From Rhabdophis nuchalis (Eukaryota; Chordata; Lepidosauria; Squamata; Natricidae), in contig CM077647.1 of NCBI GenBank assembly GCA_039707465.1, positions 172,110,663-172,174,662 of the forward strand: 64,000 nucleotides of DNA. The letters are read 5' to 3'. Below the pieces are notes generated by a model. It worked only from the letters and a program-made list of their open reading frames with translations, had not been told where the DNA came from and did not search any database. This document shows positions 5,081 to 28,329 of this stretch, piece after piece. The position numbers and the translations under genes were made by a program. The first letter of the stretch is position 1. Each line of letters starts with the position of its first letter.

Positions 5081-5333
5081 AGAAAGGTTGTAAAATGGGG
5101 CAAATCTCACTTAACAAATATTTCATTTAGCAACATAAATTTGAGGCTTAATTTTGGTTGTAAATCAAGAACTACCTGTATTATTTTTTCCCCAAAACTT
5201 TCTTATACTTGACACAGTAGCAAGTTATATTTATTCAAAAATAGGCACAACATTACTATGAATACGTACTCAATGTTACACCCAAATGTATTTTATTTAC
5301 ACATGGGTAGCTCTTAGATCTTTTCCCACATCT

Positions 5334-9750: not shown

Positions 9751-10614
9751 CTCTTTGTAACACAAAGGAACATGGGTGTGACCAATTGCACAAGAGCGTC
9801 TGGATTCATCCTTGTTGGACTGCCAAGTGTATTGGGAATGGAGAGTGTCATGTATGCCAGCGTCTTTCTGCTTTATCTCCTTTGCCTGATGGGCAATGGG
9901 CTCATCATTATAATGGTAAGCATGGATCGAAATCTTCAGAAACCCATGTATTTCTTCCTTAGCAACCTTTCTTTAATTGACATTGGGCACACCACAGCCT
10001 TCATCCCTAAGTTGTTGGCCAATTACATCTCTGCCACAAATTCCATCTGTTTTTATTGCTGCATCCTACAGATGTGCTTCTATTTCCTTTTTGGGGTGAC
10101 TGAATTTTTTGTCATCACTTTGATCTCCTTGGACAGATACTTAGCCATTTGCCATCCTTTGAGATACACCACCATCATGACTTCTAGGGTCTGCCTTCAC
10201 CTTGCTATCACCGCCTGGTTTGTAGGGTTTTTCTCCATTCTTTATCAGGTGATCATGATCGCCCACCTACCCTACTGCGCCTCCAACATTATCGATCACT
10301 TCTTTTGTGATGCTGGACCTGTGTTGCAGATTGCGGGAGGGGATATAGATATCATTGAAGTTCTCGGCTTCCTCATCACTATGCTGGTGGTGATGTCCTC
10401 CTTGCTCTTCACCCTCATTTCCTACCTCTTCATCATCTGCACCGTTCTCCGAATGCCTTCAACCACCAGTCAACAGAGGGCTTTTTCTATCTGTGCTTCC
10501 CACTTGATTGTAGTCTGCATTTTCTACGGATCCGTCTTTTTTGTCTACCTAAGGCCGACGGTCAAGAACTCTTCCTTCGGCTTCCGGTTCCGGCTCCGAC
10601 GGCGACGGGCGAAC

Positions 10615-10800
10615 TTAGGGTTCGCTCGCCGCTTTGATCCTTTTCCTGGCCCCCCACGGGGGCGAGAAGCCCCTTGTTTGGGGCTTCTCCCGTAAAGCCG
10701 GCTCGACAGGGAAGCCCCCCCCCGCGGCAGCGGGGAGAGCGACCCTGCTCCTCGGCTTAGGTGGAAGAGGACATGCTGCGGGGGGTCTTCCCTTCGCCAA
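10615..10800 (-). other. Antisense ORF in the 5' leader of the HAL1-like element, copy 1
   Basis: A 61-codon minus-strand frame begins MAKGRPPAACPLPPKP and is Pro/Arg/Ala-rich. The corresponding frame in the second copy (starting at 27766 on the + strand) begins MAKEKPPAACPPPPKP, with the start codon and frame kept. The position, antisense and in the 5' leader, recalls primate L1 ORF0, but no homology to it is claimed. Conservation may simply reflect shared descent of G+C-rich DNA. Confidence 0.35.
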
Positions 10801-11440
10801 AGGTTGGCGGCACCATTTAATTCTATGAAGAGAGAAGATCGGAAGAGTCGGGAGGCTTTTCGGGACCTCAGCTGCGAGCGGAGAGTGAGCGTTTAAAACT
10901 TTTCTTTTTGTGTACTGTCAGCCGGGCTGAAAGGGACTGGAGGGGGGTGTTTGTTTCCAAAAACCCCCCCTTGGACTAAAAGCGGCACTTGGAAATGCCT
11001 CGTTGCGAGGAATCGGAAACTTTAAATCTGGATGGTCTCTAACAAGGGAAAGTACTTTGCGGCTTGTTTGCAATTATGTCTCGAGGTCTGGCTGAAACAG
11101 TTTCTTTTTTGCTTTTTAACCGCTTTCTCCCTCGGGCTCTGAGTTTGGGCGGAAAATGGCTTCTCTTTGTCCCCGACTGACTATGACCTATGGAAAATTA
11201 CCAGTGTCTCTTTGCGATTTGGACTTCCTCTAATTATTGATGAAGAATTTTCTTTTTTTGGATTTGTGTTTTCCTTTCTGGATTGCCTTCGTTATTATAC
11301 CTATGGAGTTGGAAAAGTGTTTCTCTGTTGGCTTCTGAATTTTGCAGCTGTACAACTTTGAGGACTTTGGACTCCTGATCTGCCTTACCAGCCCCACCCT
11401 AAAAACGCCATTTTACTGGCACGGATATTAACAGCTAAAC

Positions 11441-12277
11441 ATGGCACAAGAAGCAACGCTCGCAAGCCTTGAACAAAGAATGACTGCCCTTGAAACTGTT
11501 ATACAAAATTTGGTATCAGAAATTAAGGCTCAGAGGGCAGAAAATGTCAACTTTAAAAAGGAACTATTGGACACTCGAAAACAAGTGCTTGAGAATACAC
11601 AGAAGAATGAAGAATTGAAAGGGGGGCTGGAGGGGGCTAAGGGAGAGATTAAAAATGTTTCTAATGAGGTTGTGGAAATAAATGCGCATGTGACTAGGAT
11701 TGATTTGGAAAGGATGACATATTTTTTGAGATTCCAGAATGTTTCTGAGATGGATGGTGAATGTCTCCCTGATCTTATGAGTACAATTATTGCAGACTAT
11801 TTACATAAACCCAAAGATGAGATCAGAGGGGACATTGACCTAGTCTACAGAATAAATTCTGCATATGCTAGGATGAATGAAGTACCCAGAGAGATACATG
11901 TAAAATTTGTTAGAAGGTCAACCAGAGAGGAAATCTTGAAGGTGCAAAGAGGGAGTCCTATGATTTACCAACAAAAGGAGATTACCATCTTGAAGCAGAT
12001 TCCAAGAAAAGTTAGAGAAGCCAGAAGGAAATTTTCCTTCTTGTCTAAAACATTGTTTGATCATGGGATCTGGTTCAAGTGGGTGATACCCGAAGGGATG
12101 CTGGTGTTCTGGGAAGGAGGTAGAGTAAAGATTAAAACAGTTGCTGAGGCGGAAGCCTTTCTTAAAAAACATTCCTCTGTCCTGGGAGAAGATCCAGGGG
12201 GGGGCAGGGGGAGCCATGGCCCCGCCCGCTGGGGGCCCGGGGGAGAAGGGGGAAGATACAATTGCCAAGAGACTTAG
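11441..12277 (+). CDS. L1-type ORF1 protein (RNA-binding chaperone), copy 1
   Basis: The protein has 278 residues. Residues about 5-95 are heptad-like and charged (LASLEQRMTALETVIQNLV, then KKELLDTRKQVLENTQ), which predicts a coiled coil as in L1 ORF1p trimers. Residues about 95-190 (MTYFLRFQNVSE, then IIADYLHKP, YRINSAYAR, REIHVKFVRRSTREEIL) fit the RRM-like Transposase_22 domain. Residues about 190-250 (REARRKFSFLSKTLFDHGIW, then VFWEGGRVKIKT) fit the C-terminal domain. The last ~25 residues are Gly-rich and differ from copy 2 by frame in a G-run. Over the first ~250 residues the two copies are roughly 88% identical by eye. The ATG at 11441 is shared by both copies. The family role is nucleic-acid binding in retrotransposon RNPs. 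Confidence 0.85.
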   Translation: MAQEATLASLEQRMTALETVIQNLVSEIKAQRAENVNFKKELLDTRKQVLENTQKNEELKGGLEGAKGEIKNVSNEVVEINAHVTRIDLERMTYFLRFQNVSEMDGECLPDLMSTIIADYLHKPKDEIRGDIDLVYRINSAYARMNEVPREIHVKFVRRSTREEILKVQRGSPMIYQQKEITILKQIPRKVREARRKFSFLSKTLFDHGIWFKWVIPEGMLVFWEGGRVKIKTVAEAEAFLKKHSSVLGEDPGGGRGSHGPARWGPGGEGGRYNCQET

Positions 12278-12727
12278 ATCTAAAAAATAACTTTGCCCTT
12301 GTTTTTCTTTTGAGTAATATTGTATGATATTTGTAATCTGGATTTTTGCAATTGACTGACAGTATATAACTGAAAAATTTAGGAATATGTACTTGCTCCC
12401 AGCTTGTAGTGTTATGTGAAATGTTTCTTTTTTTTCTTTTTAATAATGTAATTTGAGGTTCCGGAGGAGCCGACGACTTTGACGTGACCACTCTCAAAAT
12501 TTCTATGTAACCCTTACCCTACCCCACAAAAAATGTAAACTCAATAAAACTTTTTCAATATAAAAAAAAAGAACTCTTCCTTCGGTGTCATCAAGTCTGT
12601 TTCTGTGGTGAATGCCATCGTTGCTCCCGTGCTGAATCCTTTCATTTACACCATTAGGAACAAGGAAGTGAAAGGAGCTGTGTGCAAAGCATTAAGAAAA
12701 ATGAGTCCAGCTTTTTCAAAACCATAG

Positions 12728-12989
12728 ACCTCGTTGGAGAAGCAATCCTATGCTTCAAGACGAGGATTTGGGGCAGGGGTGCTATCCATCAAAGATATTA
12801 TACCATTATTTTTCCTCGCCCAATTCAAGGTCTTTATAAGAAGAAGCAGCTGAACACCCATTGCCTACTATTTCTTTTTATTAAAGAGTTCTTCATTTTT
12901 ATTTCTCATGTTTACATTCACAAACACACATTCTCACAGATATTGTTAACATTATGTGTTGCCTTTTAACATTTATGACAAATTCATTT
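12728..12989. other. OR1 3' flank
   Basis: A/T-rich sequence following the OR1 stop. It contains TTTTTATTAAAG but no clear poly(A) signal of its own that I can assign, and no gene. Confidence 0.35.
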
Positions 12990-13047
12990 CTCCGCCTGAC
13001 TTTAAAAATATAATCGAGGTTGCTTTCCTACGATCCTATATTCATCT

Positions 13048-13310
13048 TGTTTTACAACCAACCTACTTCTCCTTCCCTCTTCTTTCCTTCTACCTTCCCT
13101 TCTTCTCTACTTTCTTCTTCCCTCCTTTCCTTTCTTTTTTCTTCTTCCCCTACCTCTCCCCCACTCCTCTCCACTTCTTCCCCTTCCTGCCCTCTCTCCT
13201 ACTCTTACTACCCCTCCTATTCTTCCTCTCTTTTCCTTTTCTTCTTTCCCCTCTTCTCCTCTCCTCTTCTTAACTTTCCCTCTCTTCCTCTCTTCCTTCC
13301 CTCCTTCCAT
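13048..13310 (+). repeat. Polypyrimidine (CT-rich) tract
   Basis: About 260 bases are almost purely C and T on the + strand, in irregular CTTCC/TCTTC blocks. Frames through it are low-complexity Ser/Leu/Phe/Pro and are not credible proteins. It could be an expanded tail or a potential triplex-forming tract. Confidence 0.7.
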
Positions 13311-13479
13311 TGTTGTGTTTACATATTTTCCTCTTCAATCCGGTGTGTTATCGGGATGGCACTCGAGCAAACCCAGTTCTGTATTTACATAACAATCTTA
13401 AGTTCCCTCTTCCTCATTTTATTTTCCATTGTAATAGTTCCATGTATATCATCTTTTAAACATATATTTGTATATTAAT

Positions 13480-13920
13480 GTTTTTCTATTTCCCCCCTCT
13501 TTCTCCCTCCTTCATTTAATAGTGTGTCATCTGAATAATTTGATCTATCTTCTTTTATTCATATTCCTTTTCTAACCAATCACAAAATCACCCCCATGTC
13601 TTGAAGTACACTGATTCCTCTTTATCCTTTATTCTCAATGTTAACCTATTCATTTCTGCACAGTCTAACATTTTCTTTATTTTCTCTCCTTCTGAAGGGA
13701 TTTTGTCTGCTTTCCAATTTTGTGCAAATGCAATCCTACATGTATGATCAAATATGTGTCTTCTTTACCATAGTTCTCTGGTAAGATATCCAATAAAAAT
13801 ATCTCTAGTCTCAACTCTATATGTTGGTGCAGCATTTTCTTTAACCATGTTTGTAACTTAACCCAATAATTCTTTGCTTCCATGCATGTCCACCACATGT
13901 GGTAATATGCCATTGCCTAG
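13480..13920 (-). mobile_element. L1 LINE 3' fragment (ORF2 C-terminus)
   Basis: The minus-strand frame from 13913 reads AYYHMWWTCMEAKNYWVKLQ, then IELRLEIFLLDIL, an L1 ORF2 C-terminal piece. Frame breaks follow, with CAEMN/LTL-like remnants near 13620-13660. The copy is degenerate. Confidence 0.72.
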
Positions 13921-14364
13921 TATTTAAAACTGTGATGTGTTATAATAACATCCATTGTTTTGATCACAGTTGAACCCCAAGAAGGTTTTGTGAATGCTTC
14001 ATTCACAAGGAAAAATATCAGCTTTTCTTACAAATCTGTAATGGCAGCAATATTAATCTACTCTATGAGTTTCTTTGTTTTGCTATTTGATCTTGGGAAT
14101 CAATTGCAAGCTTTAGATTTCCTAGTGTTGTTTATTGAAGAAGGATCATTTGAACCAGAGGAGAACGTACAAGATATTAATTGGAAAAATGGCAAAAGAT
14201 GAGTTTTGGTGCCTACAGTGGTTCGGTATATTTTTCAAATGACAATTTTGGACCAAAGAATCATGACCTGACTGGAAAAGTGACTTTCTAAAGCATTTGG
14301 TCTTCTCCATATTTCATTCAAATATGGAGCTTCAGATCCTTTTGATTTTGAATTTGATAGGGAA
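13921..14364. other. Intergenic sequence, nothing assigned
   Basis: A short open stretch at 13960-14202 has no recognisable domain and A/T-rich composition like its surroundings. I do not call it a gene. Confidence 0.3.
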
Positions 14365-14598
14365 GCAATAGCAATAGCACTTATATACTGCTTTACAGTG
14401 CTTTACAGCTCTCTCTAAGTGGTTTACAGAGTAAGCATATTTCCCCCAACAATTTGGGTCCTCATTTAACCCACCTTGGAAGGATTGAAGGCTGAGTCAA
14501 CCTTGAGCCTGGAGGGATTCGAACTCCCAATTTGCAGGCAGCTGGCAGTCAGCAGAAGTAGCCTGCAGTACTGCACTCTAACCACTGTGCTACCGGTT
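14365..14598 (-). mobile_element. tRNA-derived SINE, CAATAG-tail type
   Basis: On the minus strand: a head with GGTTAGAGTGCAGTACTGCAG, then GGTTGACTCAGCCTTCAATCC, then GTAAACCACTTAGAGAGAGC, and a tail of GCTATTGCT repeats. This is the same family as 33059-33256 (minus) and 60050-60196 (plus, internally deleted). The A/B-box-like head suggests tRNA ancestry. Confidence 0.78.
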
Positions 14599-14604
14599 TC
14601 AGGG

Positions 14605-14985
14605 ACTGGGGATGTCTAGTTTAATGAAAAGAAGGACGTGGTGACATGATAGCCACGCTCCGATATCTCAGGAGCTGCCACAAAAATGAGGGAGTCAAGC
14701 TATTCTCCAAAGCACCTGAGGGTAGAACAAGAATCATTTGGTGGAAACTAATCAAGAAGAGAAGCAACTTAGAACTGAGGAGAAATTTCCTGACAGTTAG
14801 AACAATGAATCAGTGGAACAGAAATTGCCTCCAGAAGTTGTAAATGTTCCAATCCTGTAGGTTTTTAAGATGATGTTGGATAACCATTTGTCTGAAGTGG
14901 TGTAAGGTTTCCTGCCTAAGCAGGGGGTTGGAGTAGAAAACATCCTAGGTCCCTTCCAACTCTGTTATTCCATTCTATGATATTC
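14605..14985 (+). mobile_element. CR1 LINE 3' end
   Basis: It reads GTCTAGTTTAATGAAAAGAAGG, then CCTGAGGGTAGAACAAGAATC, GAGAAATTTCCTGACAGTTA, and the end GGTCCCTTCCAACTCTGTTATTCCATTC. This fits the CR1 ORF2 C-terminus plus its short 3'UTR. The 5' end is truncated, as usual for CR1. Confidence 0.8.
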
Positions 14986-15832
14986 CTGAATTATCCCAAA
15001 TCTCATAGAACAGGACTTTGTTGAGAAGTTAGGAAAAAACAACACAATCCATTTGCAATGATAATGTGGAGGTATTCTTTGACAACCGTACTTTTGCAAA
15101 GGTGGAGAAAGCAGTGGGCAATAGGGTAGGTTACACATTTTTTGTTATTTTCTTATGCACTTATGTGATGATCCTATGCTAAAAGTATTGTAGAAGAGCT
15201 ACTGTGCTCTAATACTATAGGGATAAATTAAGCAATATAGTCAATGAACCCTGATCGCCCATTTAGAATTATATCTTTTGAATACAATTCAGTCTTGATT
15301 AGGTAACTATGGATGAAGATTGGCATGTGAGATAGTCCATACCAGTTAGGTTATTGAGTTTATCATAACTTATTGACTCTGTATCGTGACATCTATATAA
15401 ATAAAAATGTAAAATAGTTTGTACGAATCCACTAATCTCAAAAACTACTGGGCCGATTTACACCAAACTTTCACACAATGTAGACAAGGACTTCCGATAA
15501 TAGAATAGCTAATCATTTTGTGCCTAGCACGCGTGTGTTGTGTACAAATTACACACAAAAATGTACCCACTGAAATGTGTGTTAACATCCCTGTAGCCAC
15601 GCCCATCAAACTGCTTTTCAACTGTCAGTGTTGGAAGAGGACTCATACGGCGGCCTCTTGGGGCCAAAAAGGTACAGAGGATAGCAAACTCCCAAGTGGC
15701 CCATAGAGGGGGGGGGAGAAATTCTGCTCAGGACTGTTCTCTGAGGTAAAAAAACGGAGGCAGGCAGCTGCTTTAAACTGTTTAATATGAACTGAACCAA
15801 ACTGTAACAAAGAATCACCCATCTGACAGCAA

Positions 15833-16200
15833 ATACAGTTTAATGAAAAGAAGGACTAGGGAAGACATGATAGCAGCCTTCCAATATCTCAGGGGTTGCC
15901 CCAAAGAAGAGAGGAGTCAAGCTATTCACCAAGGCACATGAGGGCAGAACAAGAAGCAATGGGTGGAAACTAATCAAGGAGAGAAGCAACCTAGAACTGA
16001 GGGCAAATTTCCTGGCAGTGAGAACTATTAACCAGAGGAACATCTTGCCACCAGAAGTTATGGATGCCCCAACACTGAAGAGAGAAGAGATTGGAAAACC
16101 ATTTGTCTGAAACGGCATAGGGTCTCCTGCTTGAGCAGTGGGGTTGGACTAGATGACCTCCAAGGTCCCTTCCAGCTCTGCTATTGTATTATTGTATTAC
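15833..16200 (+). mobile_element. CR1 LINE 3' end inside the Helitron
   Basis: It reads ACAGTTTAATGAAAAGAAGG, then CTAGAACTGAGGGCAAATTTCC, then GGACTAGATGACCTCCAAGG, TCCCTTCCAGCTCTGCTATT and (ATTGT) tail units near 16185-16200. It is a 5'-truncated copy. Confidence 0.8.
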
Positions 16201-16239
16201 AGTAGGTAGGTAGATAGGGGAATAGAGAGAAAGGGAGAA

Positions 16240-16925
16240 ATACAGTTTAATAAAAGAGGGACTAGGGGAGACAGGATAGCAGCCTTCCAATATCTCAGGG
16301 GTTGCCACAAAGAAGAGGGAGTCAAGCTATTCTCCAAGGCACCTGGGGGCAGGACAAGAAGATATGGGTGGAAACTAATCAAGGAGAGAAGCAACTTAGA
16401 ACTGAGGAGAAATTTCCTGACAGTTAGAACAATTAATCAGTGGAACAACTTGCCTCCAGAAGTTGTGAATGCCCCAACACTGGAAGTCTTCAAGAAGATG
16501 TTGGATAGCCATTAGTCTGAAATGGTATAGGGCAGTGATGGCTAACCTTTTTTGGCTCACGTGCCAAAGCAGGGGGAGTGCAGGGGCGATGTGCACAGGT
16601 GTGACACATCCATAATGCTATGTGCATGAGCCCCTGCATTTGGCATGCTTTTTACGTCATCCCCAGGCTCCAGAGGGTTTATAGGAGCCTGGGGAGGGTG
16701 AAAACAGCCTTCCCCCACCTCCAGAGGGCAAAAAATGGCCTCAAAAGAAGGCCTAAATCAGCTGGCCAGGGCACACATACAAACTGAAGCTGACAGGGCA
16801 ATGCCTCGAGTGGCCTAAGAAATGGTTCCGTGTGCCACCTGTGGCACCCGTGCCATAGGTTCGCCATCATGGGTATAGGGCTTCCTGCCTAGCAGGGAGT
16901 TGGACTAGATGACCCCCAAGGGATA
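16240..16925 (+). mobile_element. CR1 LINE 3' end, interrupted by a hAT MITE
   Basis: CR1 sequence runs from ACAGTTTAATAAAAGAGGGA to AATGGTATAGGG (16532). It resumes after the MITE at 16873 as GTATAGGGCTTCCTGCC, then GGACTAGATGACCCCCAAGG. It then dissolves into the minisatellite. This lies within the Helitron. Confidence 0.78.
16533..16872. mobile_element. hAT-type MITE (340 bp)
   Basis: The termini are imperfect inverted repeats: CAGTGATGGCTAACCT at the left, and AGGTTCGCCATCATG near the right end. The 8-bp target duplication GTATAGGG is at 16525-16532 and 16873-16880. The sequence is non-coding. Related ends occur near 19940-19978 and 34723-34815. Confidence 0.8.
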
Positions 16926-16944
16926 GATAGAGAGGCAGAAATAA

Positions 16945-17011
16945 GGTAGGTAGGTAGGTAGGTAGGTAGGTAGGTAGGTAGGTAGGTGGATAGATAGATA
17001 GATAGATAGAT

Positions 17012-17046
<35 letters not shown>

Positions 17047-17850
17047 GACGGTAGGTAGGTAGGTAGGTAGGTAGGTAGGTAGGTAGGTAGGTAGGTAGGG
17101 GGAGAAAGGAAGAAATATAGTAGGTAGGTAGGTAGGTAGGTACATAGGTAGGGGGATGGATAGATAGATAGGGAGAAATACAGTAGATAGGTAGGTAGAG
17201 GGATAGACAGAGAGGGAGAAATACAGTAGGTAGGCAGGTAGGTGGATAGGGGGATAGATAGAGAGGGAGAAATACAGTAGGTAGGTAGGTGGAGGGAGAA
17301 AGCAAGAAATACAATAGGTAGGTAAGTAGAGGGATAGACAGAGAGGGAGAAATACGGTAGGTAGGTAGGTGTATAGATAGCGAGAAATACGGTAGGTAGG
17401 TAGGTAGAGGGATAGAGGGGGGGAAATACAGTAGGTAGGTAGATAGAGGGAAAAAGAAAGAAATACAGTAGGTAGGTAGGTAGGTAGAGGGATAGACAGA
17501 CAGGGATTAATACAGTAGGTAGGTAGGTAGAGGGATAGAGGGGGGGAAATACAGTAGGTAGGTAGGTAGAGGGATAGAGGGGGGAAATACAGTAGGTAGG
17601 TAGGTAGAGGGATAGAAAGAGAGGGAGAAATACAGTAGGTAGGCAGGTAGGTAGATAGGGGGATAGATAGAGAGGGAGAAATATAGTAGGTAGGTATGTA
17701 GGTAGCTAGGTAGGTAGAGGGATAGAGAGGGGGAAATACAATAGGTAAGTAGGTAGGTAGAGGGAGAAAGAAAGAAATACAGTAGGTAGGTAGGTAGAGG
17801 GATAGACAGATAGAGAGAGAGAGAAAAATACAGTAGGTAGGTAGGTTGGG
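16945..17850 (+). repeat. GTAG/TAGG minisatellite inside the Helitron
   Basis: About 20 irregular copies of a 35-45 bp compound unit are present: several GTAG units followed by AGGGATAGAGAGGGAGAAATACA. A pure TAGATAGA/GAAA stretch lies at 16986-17046. The same compound unit, in fewer copies, occurs in the sister Helitrons (31553-31797 minus, 50560-50636 plus). It is therefore intrinsic to this element family and has expanded here. Confidence 0.85.
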
Positions 17851-18166
17851 GCTTATATGGTGGTTGGGTGTATGTGTGCAGGTGTAGATCTACACACAGA
17901 TTGGTTGGCCATTTAACCAGACTGGGCCACAGCAATGCGTGGCCGGGTATAGCTAGTGTTCAATAAAATCTGTTGTCTGAGCTGCTTCCTTAGATTGGAA
18001 TTCTTGAATATGCTGTTCACTAAAATGATGTGGTACATTGGTTGACGTGTTGGGCTAGGAATAGAAACACACAGGATCATGGCCTCCTTTGTCATAGCAG
18101 CTCATAGGTGACCTGACAATGAACAGTTCTTATAGGGAAATATTGGAGGGATATCAAGGTGAGAAG

Positions 18167-18720
18167 TGTTATGGCCTGCCAGCAGAGTTGGCAGCAGATT
18201 CAGACAATTAGGAGGTTGGGGGAGGAACATGGGCCAGTCCTGGAGCCTGGGGAAGGCTCTGACGAGGGCTCTGCCTCAGAGGCAGACATGGGGCCAGGGC
18301 CATCTGACAGTTATCATCTGCCTTTGGGAGTCGGAGATGAGTGGGGCAGAAGAACAGCTGGAGCCTGTTCCCAGTGTGCACATAAACAGAGCTGCAAGGA
18401 GAAGAGAACAGCTAAAGAACAAGGGTCGACTTGAAAGGGAGGCCACAGGTGAACAGTGAATGGCCCCTCCCATGGAAAATAAAAGAGGAGCGAAAGGGGA
18501 GTGGAGCTTGCAGGAGACAATTGATTCATTCCTGCATTCTTGCCAAGTATCGCGGGCATCTGAAAGATATTGGCCTGGCCACTCTCCAAACCTGATAAAG
18601 ATGGGTAATGGTGAACTGTCTTGAAAGACTGTGGTCCAGGACTTTGCTGGAGAAGTACTCACTGTAAATTAAATAAAAGGGGTTTGTGGGGACGAGGACT
18701 CGGATGCTGGGGAAACCTAG
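18167..18720 (+). mobile_element. Probable solo LTR
   Basis: It starts TGTTATGGCCTGCCAGCAG and has an acidic Glu/Ser/Asp-rich short frame near the start (GEGSDEGSASEADMGPGPSD). An AATAAAAG polyadenylation-type signal lies at about 18673, with a G/T-rich region after it. The layout resembles the minus-strand repeats ending at about 33035 and 42735, which begin TGTGGCCCAGCAGG. The right end is blurred by an L2-like fragment. No retroviral coding sequence was seen. Confidence 0.45.
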
Positions 18721-18736
18721 GTCAGAGGCTTCTCAT

Positions 18737-19180
18737 CCTGCCCCATAAATCCCTTCGACCGATTCGCTCGCACAGAGAGGGACTTCTCCGGGTGACGTCC
18801 ACTAGGCAATGCCAGCGGGCGACACTCAAGGGAAGGGCCTTCTCTGTCGCAGGCCCTATCCTATGGAACGACCTACCCCCCGACCTCAGAACAACTCCGG
18901 ACCTCCGCTCCTTCAGCCGAAAGCTCAAAACCTATTTCTTCCAGCAGGCCGGCCTGGCCTAATCTATCTTTCCTGCCTCCAGTCTGTATATTTAAATTTT
19001 TAATTGGGTTTTAGTGTTTTAGGATTTTAGGTTTTAGCGCAGGGTTATAGTAGTTTAATCTGATTTTAGGTATTTATATTGTTTTATGTTTGTATGTTTT
19101 ATAATTCCCTGTGCACCGCCCCGAGTCCCTTCGGGGACAGGGAGCGGTATATAAATAAAATTTGATTTGATTTGATTTGA
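18737..19180 (+). mobile_element. L2-like LINE 3' end
   Basis: It encodes the last ~75 residues of the LINE protein ([20 protein letters not shown], then WNDLPPDLRTTPDLRSF, ending QQAGLA at about 18960). The 3'UTR hairpin CCCCGAGTCCCTTCGGGGA lies near 19120-19138, and the tail is (TTTGA)n at 19161-19180. Confidence 0.88.
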
Positions 19181-19436
19181 GAGCAAGAAGAAGAAAGTAA
19201 TTCTTAGCATTCTTGTCCTTCTATTCCCTGAGAAGTATCATTTAAACACCGAGCAGTGTATCTGCAGGATTTTCCCAATGTTACAAATGCACAAACTTTC
19301 TGTTAGAAGAACAAATGAGAATCAGATGGAGTGGAGAAATCCAAAAATCAGAAAACAGAAGAAGAGGCGTACAGAAAGAGGTTTTCTAGATCAGAGTCGG
19401 ATGGTGAATCTTGAGCCCTAAACCACAAGTTGTTGT

Positions 19437-19590
19437 TTTTTTCTCGAGGCAACTGGACTTTCTTGTTTTTCTTTGAAGATGTTTCACTTCTCATCCAAGG
19501 AGCTTCTTCAGCTCATCTTGGGCGAGAAGCAAAACATCTTCAAAGAAAACCAAGAAAGTCTAGTTAACTCTTTAAAAAAAAAAGACTGGG
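19437..19590. repeat. Foldback repeat with inverted arms
   Basis: The left arm (GGCAACTGGACTTTCTTG, then TCTTTGAAGATGTTTC) and the right arm (AACATCTTCAAAGAAAACCA, then GAAAGTCTAGTT) are imperfect inverted repeats around a short centre near 19510. Related pieces lie at 8618-8810, 36742-36830 and 38280-38370. Confidence 0.6.
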
Positions 19591-19639
19591 GAATCTCCAT
19601 AACTTGACCCATAAAAAGGATTCTTCTATGTGTAACACT

Positions 19640-19978
19640 TTCAAGCCTATGTATGTTACCATTTTTGTATACGACCCATTTTGGGACTGGAAAGGCTCCT
19701 GCACCAATCGGGAAGTCAAAACTTGGGGGCACTGCATGAGGCCAAAAATTGCAATGCAAGCAACCCCCTGTGCATGCACACCTCTCCCATGCATGAGTAC
19801 CACCCCTGTGCATGTACATGCATATCCTCTGCATGTGCCCCGCCCCATATACATACACAGCAGAGACCCGAAGACCAGCTGGCTGATGGGAGGCGCATGC
19901 ATATGTGCAGTAGAGCTGGGCTGGCATGATGGCTGGTGTGCAGAGAGGGCTCCGTGTGCTATAGGTTCGTCATCACAA
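19640..19978. mobile_element. hAT MITE fragment (same terminus as 16533-16872)
   Basis: It ends CTATAGGTTCGTCATCACAATG, matching the right terminus of the 340-bp MITE. The interior is CATG/TGCA-rich with several ATGCAT words. The left end is not defined. Confidence 0.45.
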
Positions 19979-20336
19979 TGCTAAGACCACCTCCACCAAC
20001 ACTGACAGGACAACCCACCTGTAGAGATAGAGGAAAGGTTGCAAAGAGGCAAGCGCAGCACACTGCCATGACTTAGTAGCTGTTTACCTCAGATGTCTAT
20101 GAGCTCACCTAATTAGCAGCACCAGGCACTGCCAGGAACTATCAAGATATGTGAGACTTTGCCCTGGCTGGGATGTTCTTGAAAGATTGACAAGGAGAAT
20201 AAACCAATGATATAGCTGCTGTTGCTATATGCTCTTTGCTTTGCTTGATAAAACTGTATAAAAAGCAATAAACTCTGCGAAGGCGGATGGACATTTTGGA
20301 TGAACCCTGCTATGACTGGTTAGTCATAGACTGGTA
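19979..20336. other. Unassigned sequence before the long L2-like LINE
   Basis: It contains TATAAAAAGCAATAAACTC near 20256-20274 and could be an LTR-type repeat or part of the LINE 5' leader. I could not decide between them. Confidence 0.25.
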
Positions 20337-20348
20337 CGAGTCGTCCCG

Positions 20349-20789
20349 GTGGAGGGCACTTCTATTCAGAAGGTCGTGGGGAGAGGCAGGTCCGAGGGGA
20401 GACAATTCCCATCCTCCCGGTTGAGGGCACAGAACCGTTGGTTGCAAACGGTGAAGTGCCACAACCCCCGCAGGCTAGGTGGTCAGGGAGTACAGAGCCA
20501 GGGCCTGCGGCTGATGTTTTGCAATGCCAGGTCCGTGGTCAACAAAGCCCCCCTCGTCCATGACCTTGTGTCAGAGGGGGAGCCGGACCTGGCAGGAATA
20601 GCGGAGGCCTGGTTGGGCCACGAGGGTGGACTCCCCCTCGTTGAAATGTGCCCACCAGGTTACCGTGCTTTTCATCAGCCCCGGGCCCTAGGCAGGGGTG
20701 GTGGGGTAGCGGTTATTGTAAAGGAAGGTCTTGAGCCGAGAGAGACCATTGTGCCACAGACCACCGGTTGTGAGTCCCTCTGTGTGTAA
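20349..20789 (+). CDS. L2-like LINE endonuclease N-terminal part (frameshifted)
   Basis: The frame encodes about 140 residues. Residues about 58-146 match the start of LINE AP-endonucleases: LMFCNARSVVNKAPLVHDLV, then PDLAGIAEAWLGHEGG, PPGYRAFHQPRALGRGGGVA. The usual ETWL is EAWL here. Compared with the copy at 62385, the sequence around 20776-20786 has one extra base, which ends this frame and places the rest of the endonuclease in the next one. The start ATG is tentative; the first ~55 residues show no domain. The enzyme nicks target DNA for target-primed reverse transcription. Confidence 0.7.
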   Translation: MEGTSIQKVVGRGRSEGRQFPSSRLRAQNRWLQTVKCHNPRRLGGQGVQSQGLRLMFCNARSVVNKAPLVHDLVSEGEPDLAGIAEAWLGHEGGLPLVEMCPPGYRAFHQPRALGRGGGVAVIVKEGLEPRETIVPQTTGCESLCV

Positions 20790-20790
20790 G

Positions 20791-23319
20791 TGGGGCCTAG
20801 GGAGGCAGTTGGGCTTGCTGGTTGTATACCTGGCTCCCCGCTATGTAGCAGCAGCCCTGCCCGAGCTCCTGGAGGTGATCGCTACGGTGGCAGTTGAGAC
20901 CCCCAGACTTTTAGTCATGGGGGACTTTAATCTGCCATCGGTGGGCGAATCATCCGAGGTAGCTCGGGAGTTCATGGCTTCCATGACGGCCATGGACCTG
21001 ACCCAATTAATTCAAGGCCCCACTCACGAGGGTGGACATACGCCAGATCTCATCTTTGTCTCTGGCCAATGGAAGAGTGATCTGGGTACAGGGGATATAG
21101 TCATCACGCCCTTGTCATGGTCAGATCACTCACTTCTCCGGCTCGACTTTCCAACCGCTACTCCCCTCTGCGGGGAGGCGGAACCTGAGTCATCAATTTG
21201 GTTCCGCCCCAGGCGCCTGATGGACCCTGATGGGTTCCAGGCGGCGCTTGGGCCACTTCCTGTACCCCTGATCCGCGCCCCGATGGATGACCTCGTGGCC
21301 GCATGGGATAGTGCGGCCGCGGGAGCCTTGGATCGGGTCGCGCCCTTGCGGCCTCTCTTGTGGCAGCGAGCCACCCTGGCTCCTTGGTTTACCGAGGAGC
21401 TGAGGGTGATGAAACGCCACAAGAGATGCCTAGAGAGAAGATGGAGGTCTACCCGATCTGAATGTGACCAGACACAGGTAAGAGCCCATTTACGGACTTA
21501 CATTGTGGTGCTGAGAGTGGCCAAACGTCATCATTGTGCCACTCTCATAGCATCCGCAGATAACCGCCCTGCCGCCCTGCTTAGGGTGACCCGCTCCCTC
21601 CTTCAACAGAGGGTGCGGGAAGCCCCATTACAGGGTAGAGCAGAGGAATTTGTGATTTATCTGCAGGAGAAAATGGCTCAGATACAGAACGAGTTAGCCC
21701 CCATTGATGGCCCAGTGGGATTGCACGAGACAGATCTTGTTTGGGAGCAGTTTGACTCTGTTACTTCCGAGGATATGGACAGGCTACGTGGGCGACTGCG
21801 AGCCACCACATGTTTATTGGACCCGTGTCCCCCTTGGCTTGTACTGGCATCCTGGGAGGTGACACGAGGCTGGCTCCAAGAGGTTGTCAACGCTTCCTTA
21901 AGTGAGGGTTCCTTGCCTGCCTCCCTAAAAGAGGCTATGTTGAGGCCCCTCCTTAAGAAGCCCTCTTTGGATCCAGCTTTACTAACCAACTATCGTCCAG
22001 TCTCCAACCTTCCCTTTCTGGCGAAGGTTGTTGAGAGTGTGGTGGCACAACAGTTTCCCCGTCACCTGGAGGAAGTTGATTATCTAAATTCGCGCCAGTC
22101 CGGCTTTCGGCCCGGACATAGCACCGAGACGGCATTGGTCGCATTGGTTGATGATCTCTGGAGGGCCAGAGATGGGGGTTGTTCCTCCATCCTGGTCCGA
22201 TTAGACCTCTCGGCGGCTTTCGATACCATCGACCATGGTATTTTATTGCATCGGCTGGGGGGATTGGGGGTGGGAGGCACCGTTTTACGCTGGTTCTCCT
22301 CCTACCTCTCTGGCCAATCGCAATTTGTGTTGACAGGAGAGCAGAGGTCGACCTCGAGACCCCTCACATGTGGGGTGCCTCAGGGGTCGGTCCTCTCGCC
22401 TCTCCTGTTCAACACATATATGAAGCCGCTGGGTGAGATCATCCGTGGTTTTGGGGTAGAGTATCACCTCTACGCTGATGATACACAGCTGTATATATCT
22501 ACCCCAAACCACCCCAACGATGCCGTAGCGGTGATGTGCCAGTGCCTGGAAGCCGTGTGGATCTGGATGGGAAGTAACGGACTCAGGCTCAACCCGACCA
22601 AGACCGAGTGGCTGTGGTTTCCGGCTGCCCGATTCAACCATCTGATTCCATCGCTGGCCATAGGGGGCGAACATCTTGCCCCTGTGGATGGGGCGCGCAA
22701 CTTGGGTGTCCCCCTGGATACCCGGCTGTCCATGGAAGATCAAGTGACAGCCGTGGCCAGGAGGGCGTTTTACCAGGTCCGCCTGGTACGCCAGTTGCGC
22801 CCCCTATTGGATCGGGATGCCCTTCGCACAGTCACTCATGCTCTCGTGACATCCCGACTGGACTATTGTAACTCTCTCTACATGGGGCTCCCCTTGAGGT
22901 GCACCCGGAGACTTCAGCTGGTCCAGAATGCAGCCGCGCGAGCAATAATGGGAACCGCAAGGTTTACCCACGTAACACCTCTCTTGTGCGAGCTGCACTG
23001 GCTGCCTGTCGTCTTCCGGGTGCGCTTCAAGGTGCTAGTTGTCATCTTTAAAGCGCTCCATGGCTCGGGACCTAGCTATCTGCGGGATCGGATCCTGCCC
23101 CATACATCCTCACGGCCGATTCGCTCCCACAGAGAGGGACTTCTCCGGGTGCCGTCCACTAGACTTTGTCAGCGGGCGACGCCCAGGGGAAGGGCTCTCT
23201 CTGTGGCGCGCCCAGCCCTCTGGAACGACCTTCCCCCTGACATTAGAACAACCACAGACCTCCGCTCCTTCCGTCTAAAATTAAAAACACATCTTTTCTG
23301 CTTGGCCGGCCTAGGGTAG
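20791..23319 (+). CDS. L2-like LINE polyprotein: endonuclease C-terminal part plus reverse transcriptase
   Basis: About 842 codons without a stop. The genuine homology starts at WGLGRQLGLLVVYLAPRY, immediately after the frameshift; anything upstream in this frame is an artefact. Order: endonuclease (VMGDFNLPSVGES, GPTHEGGHTPDLIF, SWSDHSLLRLDF), basic linker (MKRHKRCLERRWRSTR), and RT with LDLSAAFDTIDHG (motif A), [14 protein letters not shown] (motif B) and YADDTQLY (motif C). The conserved C-terminal region follows ([24 protein letters not shown]), ending in LAGLG. All RT catalytic residues I can identify are intact. A single base change in the 5' part would explain the broken frame, so the copy is young but probably dead. 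Confidence 0.85.
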   Translation, partial: WGLGRQLGLLVVYLAPRYVAAALPELLEVIATVAVETPRLLVMGDFNLPSVGESSEVAREFMASMTAMDLTQLIQGPTHEGGHTPDLIFVSGQWKSDLGTGDIVITPLSWSDHSLLRLDFPTATPLCGEAEPESSIWFRPRRLMDPDGFQAALGPLPVPLIRAPMDDLVAAWDSAAAGALDRVAPLRPLLWQRATLAPWFTEELRVMKRHKRCLERRWRSTRSECDQTQVRAHLRTYIVVLRVAKRHHCATLIASADNRPAALLRVTRSLLQQRVREAPLQGRAEEFVIYLQEKMAQIQNELAPIDGPVGLHETDLVWEQFDSVTSEDMDRLRGRLRATTCLLDPCPPWLVLASWEVTRGWLQEVVNASLSEGSLPASLKEAMLRPLLKKPSLDPALLTNYRPVSNLPFLAKVVESVVAQQFPRHLEEVDYLNSRQSGFRPGHSTETALVALVDDLWRARDGGCSSILVRLDLSAAFDTIDHGILLHRLGGLGVGGTVLRWFSSYLSGQSQFVLTGEQRSTSRPLTCGVPQGSVLSPLLFNTYMKPLGEIIRGFGVEYHLYADDTQLYISTPNHPNDAVAVMCQCLEAVWIWMGSNGLRLNPTKTEWLWFPAARFNHLIPSLAIGGEHLAPVDGARNLGVPLDTRLSMEDQVTAVARRAFYQVRLVRQLRPLLDRDALRTVTHALVTSRLDYCNSLYMGLPLRCTRRLQLVQNAAARAIMGTARFTHVTPLLCELHWLPVVFRVRFKVLVVIFKALHGSGPSYLRDRILPHTSSRPIRSHREGLLRVPSTRLCQRATPRGRALSVARPALWNDLPPDIRTTTDLRSFRLKLKTHLFCLAGLG

Positions 23320-23485
23320 TCTCTTTTATTATGGGATTTTAGTAATTTAAATTGGGAATTTTAGCGCAGGGTTAATTGTTTAATTTGCCTTTTAGTTATT
23401 TATGTATATTTATTGTATTGTATTTTTAACTTCCCTGTGCACCGCTCCGAGTCCCCCCGGGGAGAGGGAACAGTCTATAAATTAA

Positions 23486-23522
<37 letters not shown>

Positions 23523-23539
23523 TCTGAATTCATCACCCA

Positions 23540-23650
23540 CCAAAATATAAATTGACAGCTTACAGCACTCCTTACTAGCACTGATGATGTTACCTAGTTT
23601 GGGTAACGAAATGTCTGCAAGAAAAAAAGCAAGCTCAGAGAGCTCCCAGG
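23540..23650. repeat. Foldback MITE-like repeat fragment
   Basis: It carries ACTGATGATGTTACCTAGTT, then GGGTAACGAAATGTCTGCAA. The same words recur at 29065-29215 (where both arms are present) and 43165-43260. It is non-coding. Confidence 0.5.
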
Positions 23651-23739
23651 ACCCCCCACTAAGTGTTACATCAGAAAAGGTATTGCATTTTCCTTTTTGT
23701 TTAGTTGTTGCGGGAGTGTGAATTGGGTTAACTCTAAAT

Positions 23740-24092
23740 GAGTTGCAGTTTATCCTTGCTTGATTGCTTCCAGAGGACCTCCAGAAGATGTCAGCCTTGA
23801 GTTTATTCCAGGTATTGCGCTTGGATCCTCAAGGGAAATTAAAGGCAAATATCCTTGGAGATTGTCTCCCAAGCTTCTGTCGAGAATCACTAAGTAAACT
23901 TTCCATGATGCAATCCGCTGTATGTTTTTTAAATGTCAAAGAAAATATTTCTCAAGAAGTCTACCATCTCCCCTTCGACACATGAGGTATCCTTTTCTGT
24001 GGTTCTTCAAGACACAGTCTTGATGAATGAATAGAGCGATGAAGAGAAAGGCACTTGGAGAAGACAAGTGAAGGAAGGAAGAACAAGTCAAG
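23740..24092 (+). ncRNA. Candidate OR leader block and 5'UTR exon with donor (a)
   Basis: It is homologous to the OR1, OR3, OR4 and OR5 upstream blocks (CCAGAGGACCTCCAG, AAAGGCAAATATCCTTGGAG, TGATGCAATCCGCTGTATG, CACAGTCTTGATGAATGAA, GAACAAGTCAAG). The donor is AAG|GTAAAG at 24093. It may serve OR2 (6.1 kb downstream) or be left from a lost OR. Confidence 0.5.
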
Positions 24093-24245
24093 GTAAAGGT
24101 GGAGAGATCTTTAAGTCTATGTTTTATAGAACAAATACCTGGAACAGAATTTCACTGCAGAAGTAGCTATGACTTCCTCCCATAATAACATATAGGCATA
24201 CCCATATCCACACACAGAGAAAAAACCATCTTGATGTTTATATTT

Positions 24246-24560
24246 CTAGAGACCTTTCTTTACTTATATCTCACTTAGCAAAATTATGCTATTATAGACC
24301 ATGGTTTTTATGGCAGAGAGGGATACAGGAAAACTATTCCCCGCTCTGACCCACATAAAAAAAACCCGAAGGGGAAGACTCTCTGCAGCAACACAAGCAT
24401 TCATTGAGCGTATCTGTCCCAGGGGCCATAGTTTGAGGACCCCGGATTTAGTGCAATATAAAAATTGCAAATATTTTTTTTTTCTGAAGACCACCAAAAT
24501 GTTCTCGTGAACCAACAGTGGTCCATAGACCACCAGTTGGTGACTACTGCCATAATGAAT
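24246..24560. other. Intronic insertion, possibly hAT-derived
   Basis: It carries CCAGGGGCCATAGTTTGAGGACCCC and TGGTCCATAGACCACCAG. These resemble words of hAT-Charlie type repeats, but I cannot define both ends. Confidence 0.25.
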
Positions 24561-24689
24561 CATTCCCTGAAAATATTTGCATGATTAATAACAGAAGGTT
24601 CCAGATCTTGGAATAGAGGTTAGTAGTTGACGCCAATAAAGAATTGAGCATTGAGTTTTTTCTTCTGTTCAATTCATAAAATTTTATGC

Positions 24690-24933
24690 ACAAAGGCTGG
24701 ATACTCATGGGAAATTAGAGAGACACAGGATTGTCTGCCAATGTACTGCAGGAAATGAGCGAGTTTTCTATGATGGAATCTTTGGGATCTGTTTTAAATG
24801 CTAAGGGCAGTATTTTTTTAAAAAAGTAAATTGGATTTTCTCAATGGCAGACTGTGCTGCTGTCCTTGGGCACATCAGTGACTGGTTTAATACTGGGAGA
24901 GGATAGAAGAACACATGAAGAAGACATGAACAG
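24690..24933 (+). ncRNA. Candidate OR leader exon with donor (b)
   Basis: It reads GATACTCATGGGAAATTAGAG, then TCTATGATGGAATCTTTGGG, and ends AAGACATGAACAG|GTAAGG with the GT at 24934. It is a more diverged member of the leader-exon family, only 840 bp after donor (a). Two leader exons before one OR imply an extra duplicated or lost OR unit. Confidence 0.4.
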
Positions 24934-25014
24934 GTAAGGAACGATTCATGAAAAACTAAAAACAAGTTGCAGAGAGGTCTATGTATTTTGCTTGGGTATG
25001 GCTAGTCTAGAGAG

Positions 25015-25795
25015 AATGGAATGGAATGGAATGGAATGGAATGGAATGGAATGGAATGGAATGGAATGGAATGGAATAGAATAGAATAGAATAGAACAGA
25101 ACAGAACAGAACAGAACAGAACAGAATAGAATAGAATAGAATAGAATAGAATTCTTTGTTGGTCAAGTGTGATCATTGGACACAGAAGGAATTTGTCTTT
25201 GGTGCATATGCTCTCAGTGTACATAAAAAGACAAGATATATTCATCAAGAATCATCAGGAACAGCATTTAATGATAGTCATAGGGTACAAATAAGCCATC
25301 AGGAAACAATCAATATCAATATAAATTTTAAGGATACAAGCAACAAAGTTACAGTCCTGCAGTCATAAGTTGGAGGAGATGGGTGATAGGAACGATGAGA
25401 AGACTAATACTGTGTTTCCCCCAAAATAAGACAGGGTCTTATTTTCTTTTGACTTCTGAAATAAGCGCTTGGTCTTATTTTTGGGGAAGTCTTATTATTT
25501 TTGAGGTGCAGGAGGTGGCGAGCATGATCACCTCATGGCTGCTGCTATGTTGCAATATTTTCAGGGAGGGCTTATTATCAGGGGAGGTCTTATTTTCAGG
25601 GAAACAGGGTAGTAATAGTAAAACAGCCTTAGTGAGTAGTTTGACAGTGTTGAAAGAATTATTTGTTTAGAAGAGTGATGGCATTTGGGGGGGGGAAACT
25701 GTTCTTGTGTCTAATTGTCTTGGTGTGCAGTGCTCTATACCAGCGTTTTGAGGGTAGGAGTTGAAACAATTTATGTCCAGGACTAGGAGTGACAT
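25015..25795 (-). mobile_element. CR1/L3-like snake LINE 3' end with pentanucleotide tail
   Basis: A pentanucleotide array at 25015-25160 (GGAAT, then AGAAT, then AGAAC, then AGAAT) adjoins ATTCTTTGTTGGTCAAGTGTG, then GTGCATATGCTCTCAGTGTA, and further on GTTCTTGTGTCTAATTGTC. The same 3' end occurs in the + orientation at 59695-59810 with a (TTCTA)n tail. The array is thus the extended LINE tail. A MITE interrupts it at 25410-25609. Confidence 0.7.
25410..25609. mobile_element. Small MITE with TGTTTCCC termini
   Basis: The left end CTGTGTTTCCCCCAAAATAAGAC and the right end GTCTTATTTTCAGGGAAACAGGG form imperfect inverted repeats. The flanks TAATAC and TAGTAATA could hide a TA-type target. The internal GTCTTATTTT word is repeated. 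It is non-coding. Confidence 0.6.
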
Positions 25796-26316
25796 AATAG
25801 CAATGTTACAATATTTGTGGGGCTGTCATTAAGAAGAGTGGGGTGGTTCAATCTATATTCCAAAGCACCTGAAGACAGGACAAGAAGAAATAAATACATC
25901 AAGGAGAGATCCAACCTAAAAGGAGACATTCTCTGACAGTTAATCAATAGAACAGCTTGCCTGCAGAAGTTGTGTGTGCTCCATCAATGGAGGTTTTTTG
26001 TTTTTTGTTTTTTTTTATATTGAAAAAGTTTTATTGGTTTTACAGTTTTTCAATAGGATAGGGTAAGGGATACAAAGAAATTTTGAGAGCATTCACGTCA
26101 AAGTCGTCGGCCCTACCGGGACATCAAAATAGATCATTAATAAAAAACATTTTCCAAACACTACAAAGTAAAAGCAAGTACATATTTCTAAGTTCTCAGT
26201 TCTATGCTGTCAGTCATTTACAAAAATCCAGATGCACATGTTATATTATACAATATTATTCAAAAAATCAAGGCAAAGTTATTTTTTAGATCTAAGTCTC
26301 TTGGCAATTGTATCTT

Positions 26317-27126
26317 CTATCTCTCCTTCCAGGCCCCCAGCGGGCGGGGCCGTGGCCCCCCTGCCCCTCCTGGATCTTCCCCCAGGACAGAGGAATGTTT
26401 TTTTAAAAAGGCTTCCGCCTCAACAACTGTTTTAATCCTCACTCTTCCTCCTTCCCAGAACACCAGCATCCCTTCGGGCATCACCCACCTAAACCAGATC
26501 CCGTGGTCAAACAATTTTTTGGACAAGAAGGAAAATTTCCTTCTTGCTTCTCTAATCTTTCTTGGGATCTGCTTTAGGATAGCAACCTCCTTTTGTTGGT
26601 AAATTAACGGACCTCCTCTTTGCACTTTCAAGATTTCCTCTCTGGTTGACCTTCTAACAAATTTAACATGTATCTCTCTGGGTACTTCATTTATCCTGGC
26701 ATATGCAGAGTTAATTCTGTAGGCTAGATCAATGTCCCCCCTGATCTCATCCTTAGGTTTATGTAGATAGTCTGCTATAATTGTGCTCATGAGTTCAGGG
26801 AGACATTCACCAGTTTCCTCAGAAACATTCTGAAATCTCAAAAAATATGTCATCCTTTCCATATCAATCCTAGACACATGCCCATTTATTTCCACAACCT
26901 CATTAGTAACATTTTTAATCTCTCCCTTAGCCCCCGCCAGCCCCCCTTCCAATTCTTCATTCTTCTGTGTGTTCTCCAGCACTTGTTTCCGTGTGTCCAA
27001 TAATTCCTTTTTAAAGTTGATATTTTCTGCCCTCTGGGCCTTGATTTCTTGTACCAAAGTTTGTATAACAGATTCAAGAGAGGCCATCCTTAGTTCTAAA
27101 CTTGCCAGTGCTGATTCTTGTGCCAT
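26317..27126 (-). CDS. L1-type ORF1 protein, copy 2
   Basis: The protein has 269 residues: coiled-coil N-terminal third (LASLELRMASLESVIQTLV, KKELLDTRKQVLENTQ), RRM-like middle (MTYFLRFQNVSE, IIADYLHKPKDEIRGDIDL, REIHVKFVRRSTREEIL), and C-terminal domain (REARRKFSFLSKKLFDHGIW, VFWEGGRVRIKT). Compared with copy 1, about 30 substitutions occur over the first ~250 residues, many conservative, with no internal stop or indel until the Gly-rich tail. Open frames in both copies at this divergence suggest selection on ORF1 in the source lineage. The family role is an RNA chaperone in retrotransposon particles. Confidence 0.85.
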   Translation of the reverse strand: MAQESALASLELRMASLESVIQTLVQEIKAQRAENINFKKELLDTRKQVLENTQKNEELEGGLAGAKGEIKNVTNEVVEINGHVSRIDMERMTYFLRFQNVSEETGECLPELMSTIIADYLHKPKDEIRGDIDLAYRINSAYARINEVPREIHVKFVRRSTREEILKVQRGGPLIYQQKEVAILKQIPRKIREARRKFSFLSKKLFDHGIWFRWVMPEGMLVFWEGGRVRIKTVVEAEAFLKKHSSVLGEDPGGAGGPRPRPLGAWKER

Positions 27127-27765
27127 GGTTAGCTGTTAAAGTCAGTGCCACTAAAATGGCGTTTTTTGGGTGGGGCTGTTGAGGCAAGTCAGGAGCCAAA
27201 AGTTCAGTTCAGGGTTGTAAAGTTCAGGAACCAAGAGAGAAACAATTTTCCAAGTCAATAAGTATAATAACGAAGGCACTCCAGAAAAGAGATCACAAAT
27301 CCCAAAAAAAATTCTTCTTTATTAACCAGAGGGAGTCCAAATCACAAAGAGACGCTGGAAATTTTCCATAAGTAAAATAGTCATTCAGGGACAAAGAGAA
27401 GCCATTTTCCACCGCCCAGACTCAGAGCCAGAAGGCGAGAGTGGTAAAAAAAAAATGTTTCAAATCAGCCAGACATTTGATACATTGTTTCAAAGACAAA
27501 CTGCAGACCACTTTCCCTTGTTTCAAAGAGTCCAGATTAAAGATATCCGCTTCCTCGCAGCGAGGAGCCATTCTTAAGTGCCGCTTTAGTCCGAGGGGGG
27601 GTTTAACAAGCAAACACCCCCCTCCAAGTTCTTTCAGCCCAGGCTGACAGCAGGAAAAAAAATGTTTAAAACCACTCACTTTCACCCTCGCAGCCGAAGC
27701 CCCGGGAAGCCTTCCGACTCAGACGGCCAGCTCTCTTCATATTTTCAGAACGATACCGCCCGCCA

Positions 27766-27986
27766 TTGGCGAAGGAAAAACCCCCCGCAGCATGTCCTCC
27801 TCCACCTAAGCCGAAGACAAGGGTCGCTTCCCAGCTGCCGCTGGGGGAGGACGACCCAGGCAAGCCGGCTTTACGGGAGACCCCCAAAAACGGGGCGTCT
27901 CGCCCCCGTGGGGGGGCAGGAAAAGAAACAAAGCGGCGAGCGAGCCCTAGGCTCGCCCGTCGCCGCTGGAGCTGGAACCGGAAGTC
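27766..27986 (+). other. Antisense ORF in the 5' leader of HAL1-like copy 2
   Basis: The frame starts MAKEKPPAACPPPPKP and stays open past the element boundary into flanking CR1 DNA, stopping at 28044. About the first 70 residues lie inside the element and align with the antisense ORF of copy 1 (10800-10615). It is rich in Pro, Arg and Ala. No function is known to me. Confidence 0.35.
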
Positions 27987-28329
27987 CCATCAATGGAGGT
28001 TAATTGGGCTCACTATTATAAAATTTCTCCTTCATTCCAATTAACCAGGGGAATAGCTTGCCTTCAGATGTTGTGGGTGCTTTATTACTGGAGTTTCTAA
28101 AGAAGACACTAGACAGTCACTTGTCTGAAATGGTATACGGCCTCCTGGATGAGCAGGGGGATCAACTAGAAGACCTCCAAGGTCCATTCTAACTGTATTC
28201 TGATTCTGATTCTGATTCTGCTTTTTTTCCCCCTTCATTAGTTTTCATCCATTGTTTCTTGTCCTGCCCTTTGGTGCTTTGGAAAATAAGTTGTATTCGT
28301 ATTTATTGTATTTATTAGTTTGTTAAACA

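Follow-up and report, generated by a model that had tools for sequence, protein, structure and literature searches.

Two similar insertions in the genome of the snake Rhabdophis nuchalis raise the question of whether an L1-related retrotransposon that encodes only the first L1 open reading frame (ORF1) can spread as a unit, or whether such copies are remnants of L1 elements that also carried ORF2. The insertions, elements A and B, lie in a 64,000-nucleotide stretch (the window; GenBank assembly GCA_039707465.1, contig CM077647.1, positions 172,110,663 to 172,174,662 of the forward strand; G000:C5:172110663-172174662) of a 1.92-Gb genome. A and B are very probably members of an ORF1-only, L1-related (half-L1, HAL1-like) retrotransposon family with a unit of ~1.98 kb that was very recently active. 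This reading is based on the fixed anatomy of the copies, near-identical dispersed copies, target duplications at TY/AA sites, selection on ORF1, older copies that lack ORF2, and the presence in this genome of an L1 whose ORF2 is open. An earlier note on this DNA had proposed a family that spreads as a unit with a selected ORF1, and the analysis supports that proposal.

Structure of elements A and B

The features of the two elements, including 5' leaders, 3' untranslated regions (3'UTRs), and target duplications, were as follows.

10581..12568, plus strand: element A, ~1.98 kb plus A tail
10564..10580, plus strand: left target duplication of A, 17 bp, within an olfactory-receptor gene; exact repeat of 12569-12585
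12569..12585, plus strand: right target duplication of A; its first As are common to the tail
10581..11440, plus strand: 5' leader of A; first 400 bp CpG-rich, hairpins close to the 5' end
11441..12277, plus strand: ORF1 of A as open, 278 amino acids (aa); the conserved frame would end with TAA at 12290, but A has a one-base shift near the end
12291..12561, plus strand: 3'UTR of A, with AATAAA at 12543-12548, then the A tail
25996..27986, minus strand: element B, including its A-rich tail
27127..27986, minus strand: 5' leader of B
26317..27126, minus strand: open ORF1 of B, 269 aa; stop of the conserved frame expected at 26279, but B is shifted near the end
27987..28001, minus strand: left target duplication of B, 15 bp; exact repeat of 25981-25995
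25981..25995, minus strand: right target duplication of B

The coordinates and orientations in the earlier note were confirmed, and the common start, single ORF1, common 3'UTR with AATAAA, and A tail that it described were all present in the sequence. The near-equal lengths were also borne out (1990 and 1991 bases as search queries), and the target duplications, put at 15 bp or more, were exact, at 17 bp (A) and 15 bp (B). An alignment of A and B that spans 2020 columns, running from CTTCCGG into the A tail, showed 83% identity, and similarity ended at the element boundaries. Kimura two-parameter distances between them were 0.238 in the leader, 0.118 in the first 246 ORF1 codons, and 0.211 in the 3'UTR. 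The ~860-bp leader had been called G+C rich, which did not hold for the whole leader (G+C content, 0.51 in A and 0.50 in B) but did for its first 400 bp (0.60 and 0.61), where CpG observed/expected ratios were 0.84 (A) and 0.79 (B), compared to 0.39 for the window. As claimed, neither element contained ORF2: ORF2-fragment similarity was at chance level (E = 1.0 and 2.5), and the 3'UTR had stops in all frames.

The first 140 bases folded better than shuffled sequences (z = -3.7 for A and -2.8 for B), and a second 5' hairpin region had z scores of -1.2 (A) and -2.3 (B). In an alignment of A, B, and the leader of locus L041, two-sided changes were found in 7 of 39 consensus pairs, 6 of them clean and 1 with a broken row; 9 of the 39 pairs were broken in some row of this alignment of three sequences only. 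The L041 leader (positions 661-1320) is older, related to the A and B leaders at ~65% over 190 bases, and has matching hairpins. An oppositely oriented L1 interrupts L041 at this leader, so that the locus gives no information on the sequence that followed it. At the other end of the elements, a 3'UTR block, GCCGACGACTTTGACGTGA (12469-12487 and 26093-26111), is identical between A and B and almost unchanged in an older copy (L065), while its surroundings diverge; this pattern makes it a possible candidate for a functional RNA element.

Copies across the genome

Genome searches with A and B scored only the best candidates, so copy counts are lower bounds, and the scored places are biased toward young full-length copies. 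The search with A gave 40 scored places (the best of 6480 first-look candidates), comprising the window copy and 39 others, all 39 listed at 99 to 100% identity; 38 matched at least 1984 of 1990 bases, and the remaining one matched 1922. The search with B likewise gave 40 scored places (the best of 8192 candidates), the 39 besides the window copy being 95 to 98% identical. At least 1931 of 1991 bases were matched in 38 of these B-type places, one place began at base 217, and three extra rows were side pieces. Nearly all scored copies began at the same 5' base, and no scored place exceeded ~2.0 kb. One B-type copy (98%; G000:C8:45663169-45666654) directly adjoins a second piece on the same strand at 87%, an arrangement that represents either two separate insertions or a tandem.

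Twenty of the 39 A-type places and 1 of the 39 B-type places (L069) were fetched with flanks. Pairwise divergence among the 20 fetched A-type copies and window A ranged from 0.003 to 0.018 (median, 0.006). ORF1 was 282 aa in 16 of the 20 and 278 aa in two (L020 and L026); the 278-aa form common to these two and window A reflects either descent or repeated slippage. The B-type copy L069 has a 282-aa ORF1 and an 18-bp target duplication. Spread as a unit with fixed ends was thus upheld, with nearly all scored places full length, different flanks, and separate target duplications in 19 of 21 rows examined. ORF2 was absent from every scored or fetched copy with A or B ends among these best candidates.

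Integration sites and age of the insertions

Target duplications were examined in 21 rows, namely, the two window copies and 19 of the fetched A-type copies, L028 being excluded because its 3' end is cut short. Exact duplications of 11 to 19 bp were found in 19 rows. The nick site was tallied over 18 rows, L022 being set aside because its repeat consists mostly of A: T stood at -2 in 16, a pyrimidine at -1 in all 18, A at +1 in 17, and A at +2 in 17. The copies carry the marks of the L1 machinery, namely, an A tail, long target duplications, and a T-rich nick (top-strand site, TY/AA).

Element A interrupts an olfactory-receptor gene (Pfam PF13853; window positions 9772-10580 and 12586-12724). 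The rejoined flanks are open over 316 codons, and the gene is broken only by this insertion. In simulations of neutral decay, an intact 316-codon receptor frame was at most ~5% likely at 0.02 to 0.04 substitutions/site (assumed indel rates, 0.05 to 0.15 per substitution), and the ORF1 bodies of A and B were intact in ~5% at 0.03 substitutions/site (indel rate, 0.1). Intact frames being improbable beyond low divergence, most of the 0.21 to 0.24 distance in the untranslated regions arose in the source lineages, with ORF1 under selection.

ORF1 protein and selection

The earlier note held that both ORF1 frames are open. This was correct for the body (first 246 codons in register, 30 amino acid differences) but not for the C-terminal end, which is frameshifted in both elements. 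The shifts lie in a G-rich stretch preceding the conserved end ..EDTIAKRLRSKK, with an offset of 1 in A and 2 in B, and the window ORF1s are incomplete (278 and 269 aa) compared to the 282-aa form. The ending ..EDTIAKRLRSKK closes protein relative P0001 and ORF1 in 16 of the 20 fetched A-type copies. Among 13 protein relatives of ORF1, the 8 with species names were all from snakes (Ahaetulla, Erythrolamprus, Pseudonaja, Pituophis, and Micrurus). The predicted structure resembles human L1 ORF1p and includes the coiled coil, RNA recognition motif, and C-terminal domain of an L1-type ORF1 protein. ORF1 was assigned to the L1 type because of its protein relatives, its fold, and a weak blastp match between ORF1 of A and the genome's own L1 ORF1 (E = 1.3e-7 in a 17-sequence set). 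Scans of viral contigs and of bacterial and archaeal genome contigs turned up no relative.

A and B differed by 38 synonymous and 30 nonsynonymous codon differences in the first 246 ORF1 codons. Nonsynonymous divergence (dN) was 0.064 to 0.067 and synonymous divergence (dS) was 0.25 to 0.36 across three methods, giving dN/dS of 0.13 to 0.25 (0.13 or 0.24 on a shorter stretch, depending on the method). Random placement of 80 differences (3000 trials) gave a minimum of 40 nonsynonymous steps, compared to 36 observed. ORF1 of the older copy L066 had a dN of 0.18 to 0.20 and a dS of >2 (near saturation) relative to A and B, with a ratio of ~0.08 (NG86, Nei-Gojobori method). These ratios indicate purifying selection on ORF1 between subfamilies, in agreement with the selection inferred in the earlier note. 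No selection was visible within the young A-type copies, where private ORF1 changes over 21 rows numbered 7 synonymous, 11 nonsynonymous, and 2 stop; the 2 shared changes were both nonsynonymous. This pattern fits neutral drift after insertion, with selection visible only between subfamilies.

Older copies without ORF2

Older relatives were met by chance in stretches fetched around L1 copies. Three such copies (L065, L066, and L034; 70 to 83%) had no ORF2 of their own. In L065 and L066 (blastn identity to A and B, 71 to 83% and 71 to 73%, respectively), the ORF1 end (..TIAKRLRSQK, stop) leads straight into the 3'UTR with no ORF2 between. The L065 3'UTR aligned well with those of A and B up to AATAAA, and that of L066 aligned weakly, its locus stopping before the tail. 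L034 (79 to 81%) has the same ORF1-to-3'UTR order, with an L1 fragment nested in the 3'UTR. It was rejected as a copy with its own ORF2: the nested piece is a 5'-truncated L1 that ends in a separate A tail and matches the L1 of L060 at 98.8% identity. A target duplication could not be identified around this nested L1, and a target deletion was assumed. Judging from these copies, the lack of ORF2 in the family is old. The reverse complement of L062 (2400-2830, 3670-4300, and 8540-8740) contained fragments of a different snake family with an L1-type ORF1 (relatives P0008 and P0012); there, an L1 splits the ORF1 of this other type, and another repeat follows it.

Autonomous L1 of the same genome

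The window contains one L1 fragment of interest here.

5334..6194, plus strand: 5'-truncated L1 copy with ORF2 C terminus, 3'UTR, and A tail; 18-bp target duplication

Its ORF2 portion matches human L1 ORF2p, and the fragment is a relative of the likely helper, outside the ORF1-only family. L1 ORF2 was scored at 149 places in the genome, 10 of which lay within open frames of 1259 to 1261 aa and were read as 9.5-kb stretches. Complete L1 elements were ~5.85 kb, with ORF1 and ORF2 both open in 3 of the 10 (L059, L060, and L064). The A tail was readable in the L1 ends, and target duplications were readable in L063 and L067. The genome's L1 is like A and B in its L1-type ORF1, A tail, and target duplications but differs in having a 1261-aa ORF2 and 5' and 3' ends without DNA similarity to theirs. 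No blastn similarity at E 1e-3 was found between L1 bodies and A or B, the sole matches being the older copies beside the L1s of L065 and L066. The L1 ORF1 (345 to 352 aa) was 21 to 23% identical to ORF1 of A. This L1 would be the natural supplier of ORF2 protein for the A/B family.

At the 5' junction of the window fragment (5300-5350), a short inverted copy of the target lies immediately upstream: what follows the left target duplication is the reverse complement of the nearby target. Alignments with other L1 copies start only at residue 22 of the fragment's frame, and the inverted stretch looks like filler made at insertion.

Other features of the window

Long interspersed nuclear element (LINE) fragments are numerous in the window, and no Rfam match was found there. 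The remaining features were as follows.

30162, 40763, 53626, and 58339: four olfactory-receptor frames (Pfam PF13853), making five in the window with the gene disrupted by A
20731-23319: 862-aa frame encoding a reverse transcriptase domain (Pfam PF00078), putatively CR1-type
863-2946, 28387-28824, 34214-34792, 51580-52913, and 62385-63479: pieces related to the 862-aa frame

Discussion

The closest known kind of element is HAL1 of mammals, non-autonomous L1 derivatives that encode only the ORF1 protein (PMC5753468). The A/B elements are likewise ORF1-only L1 derivatives, a comparison drawn from published descriptions. They differ in their non-mammalian host, in an ORF1 that falls below every Pfam L1 model, and in that no parent L1 was found among the scored or fetched places. 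Since mammalian HAL1s had several independent origins (PMC5753468), the A/B family is most reasonably regarded as one more independent case and not as a HAL1 descendant. Rat HAL1 keeps the internal promoter on insertion (PMC8535693). The Anolis families L1AC1-15 are reported to have 5'UTRs of 800 to 1500 bp (PMC5389967), comparable to the 860-bp leader, but are full L1s of 5.2 to 6.8 kb; this likeness too is one of description. No report of ORF1-only L1 elements in squamates was found in the titles or abstracts of the open-access literature searched, which does not establish absence from print, and a word search of a snake-repeat review gave no hit for ORF1, L1 LINE, or L1 elements.

Propagation of the family might proceed as follows. 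The CpG-rich leader would act as promoter, and the ORF1 protein would bind its own RNA. ORF2 protein, probably borrowed from the separate L1 of this genome and supplied in trans, would nick T-rich target DNA and copy the element RNA starting from the A tail.

The earlier note had named two outcomes that would speak for another origin, ORF2 in most genomic copies with these ends and a single segmental duplication, and neither was found among the places scored or fetched. That A and B are one segmental duplication with a single deletion scar, an idea prompted by their lying 14 kb apart in one window, has next to no probability; it is refuted by homology that stops at the element ends, different flanks, separate target duplications, and many copies elsewhere. 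For an origin of the copies as spliced or internally deleted products of an autonomous L1 with the same ends plus ORF2, it can be said that L1 transcripts can undergo splicing and that the scored lists are biased toward the short form. This origin is nonetheless improbable: ORF1 passes into the 3'UTR in the same way in A, B, and the older copies (70 to 83%), which would require the event to have happened repeatedly at a single position over a long period; no scored place was longer than ~2.0 kb; and the ends of the intact L1 are unrelated to those of A and B, with an ORF1 that is very distant.

Slightly less probable still is that the copies are processed retrocopies from a host gene that arose by domestication of L1 ORF1, like mammalian L1TD1, an L1-derived gene maintained by selection (PMC4161310). 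Insertions derived from the mRNA of such a gene would likewise carry only ORF1, keep its frame, and have A tails and target duplications. L1TD1 and the A/B elements are both L1 derived and selected, but L1TD1 is a host gene and not a dispersed mobile family. The A/B elements, moreover, trace to two sources with untranslated regions ~20% apart, both recently active, nearly all scored copies share their 5' start base, and the leader is CpG rich.

Several observations count against an ORF1-only family that spreads as a unit. Pfam sequence searches with the ORF1 of either element gave no direct match to an L1 model, and PDB sequence searches gave no L1 match either. Early stops were present in 2 of the 20 fetched A-type copies (L010 and L027), and no exact target duplication was found in 2 of the 21 rows (L018 and L026). 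No autonomous L1 with the same ends was found among the scored or fetched places, although no search aimed at such a parent was completed, and best-candidate scoring could miss a rarer full L1 with these ends. Finally, the evidence for the family comes throughout from DNA sequence and predicted protein structure.

The ORF1-only family reading is retained, and we lean slightly toward a more specific form of it: a snake lineage with its own selected ORF1, comprising at least two recently active subfamilies and older ones, may have outlived its autonomous parent and live on the ORF2 protein of an L1 with unrelated ends, keeping its ORF1 (21 to 23% identical to that of the L1) for its own RNA. ORF1-only L1 derivatives have been described from mammals, and the present case is a recently active one outside mammals. 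Its full-length, leader-bearing insertions have spread through the snake genome, one of them breaking an olfactory-receptor gene in the window. The two young subfamilies, together with a very distant L1 as the only visible helper, would offer a way to examine why a retrotransposon that uses borrowed ORF2 protein keeps a selected ORF1 and whether the ORF1 protein works in cis.

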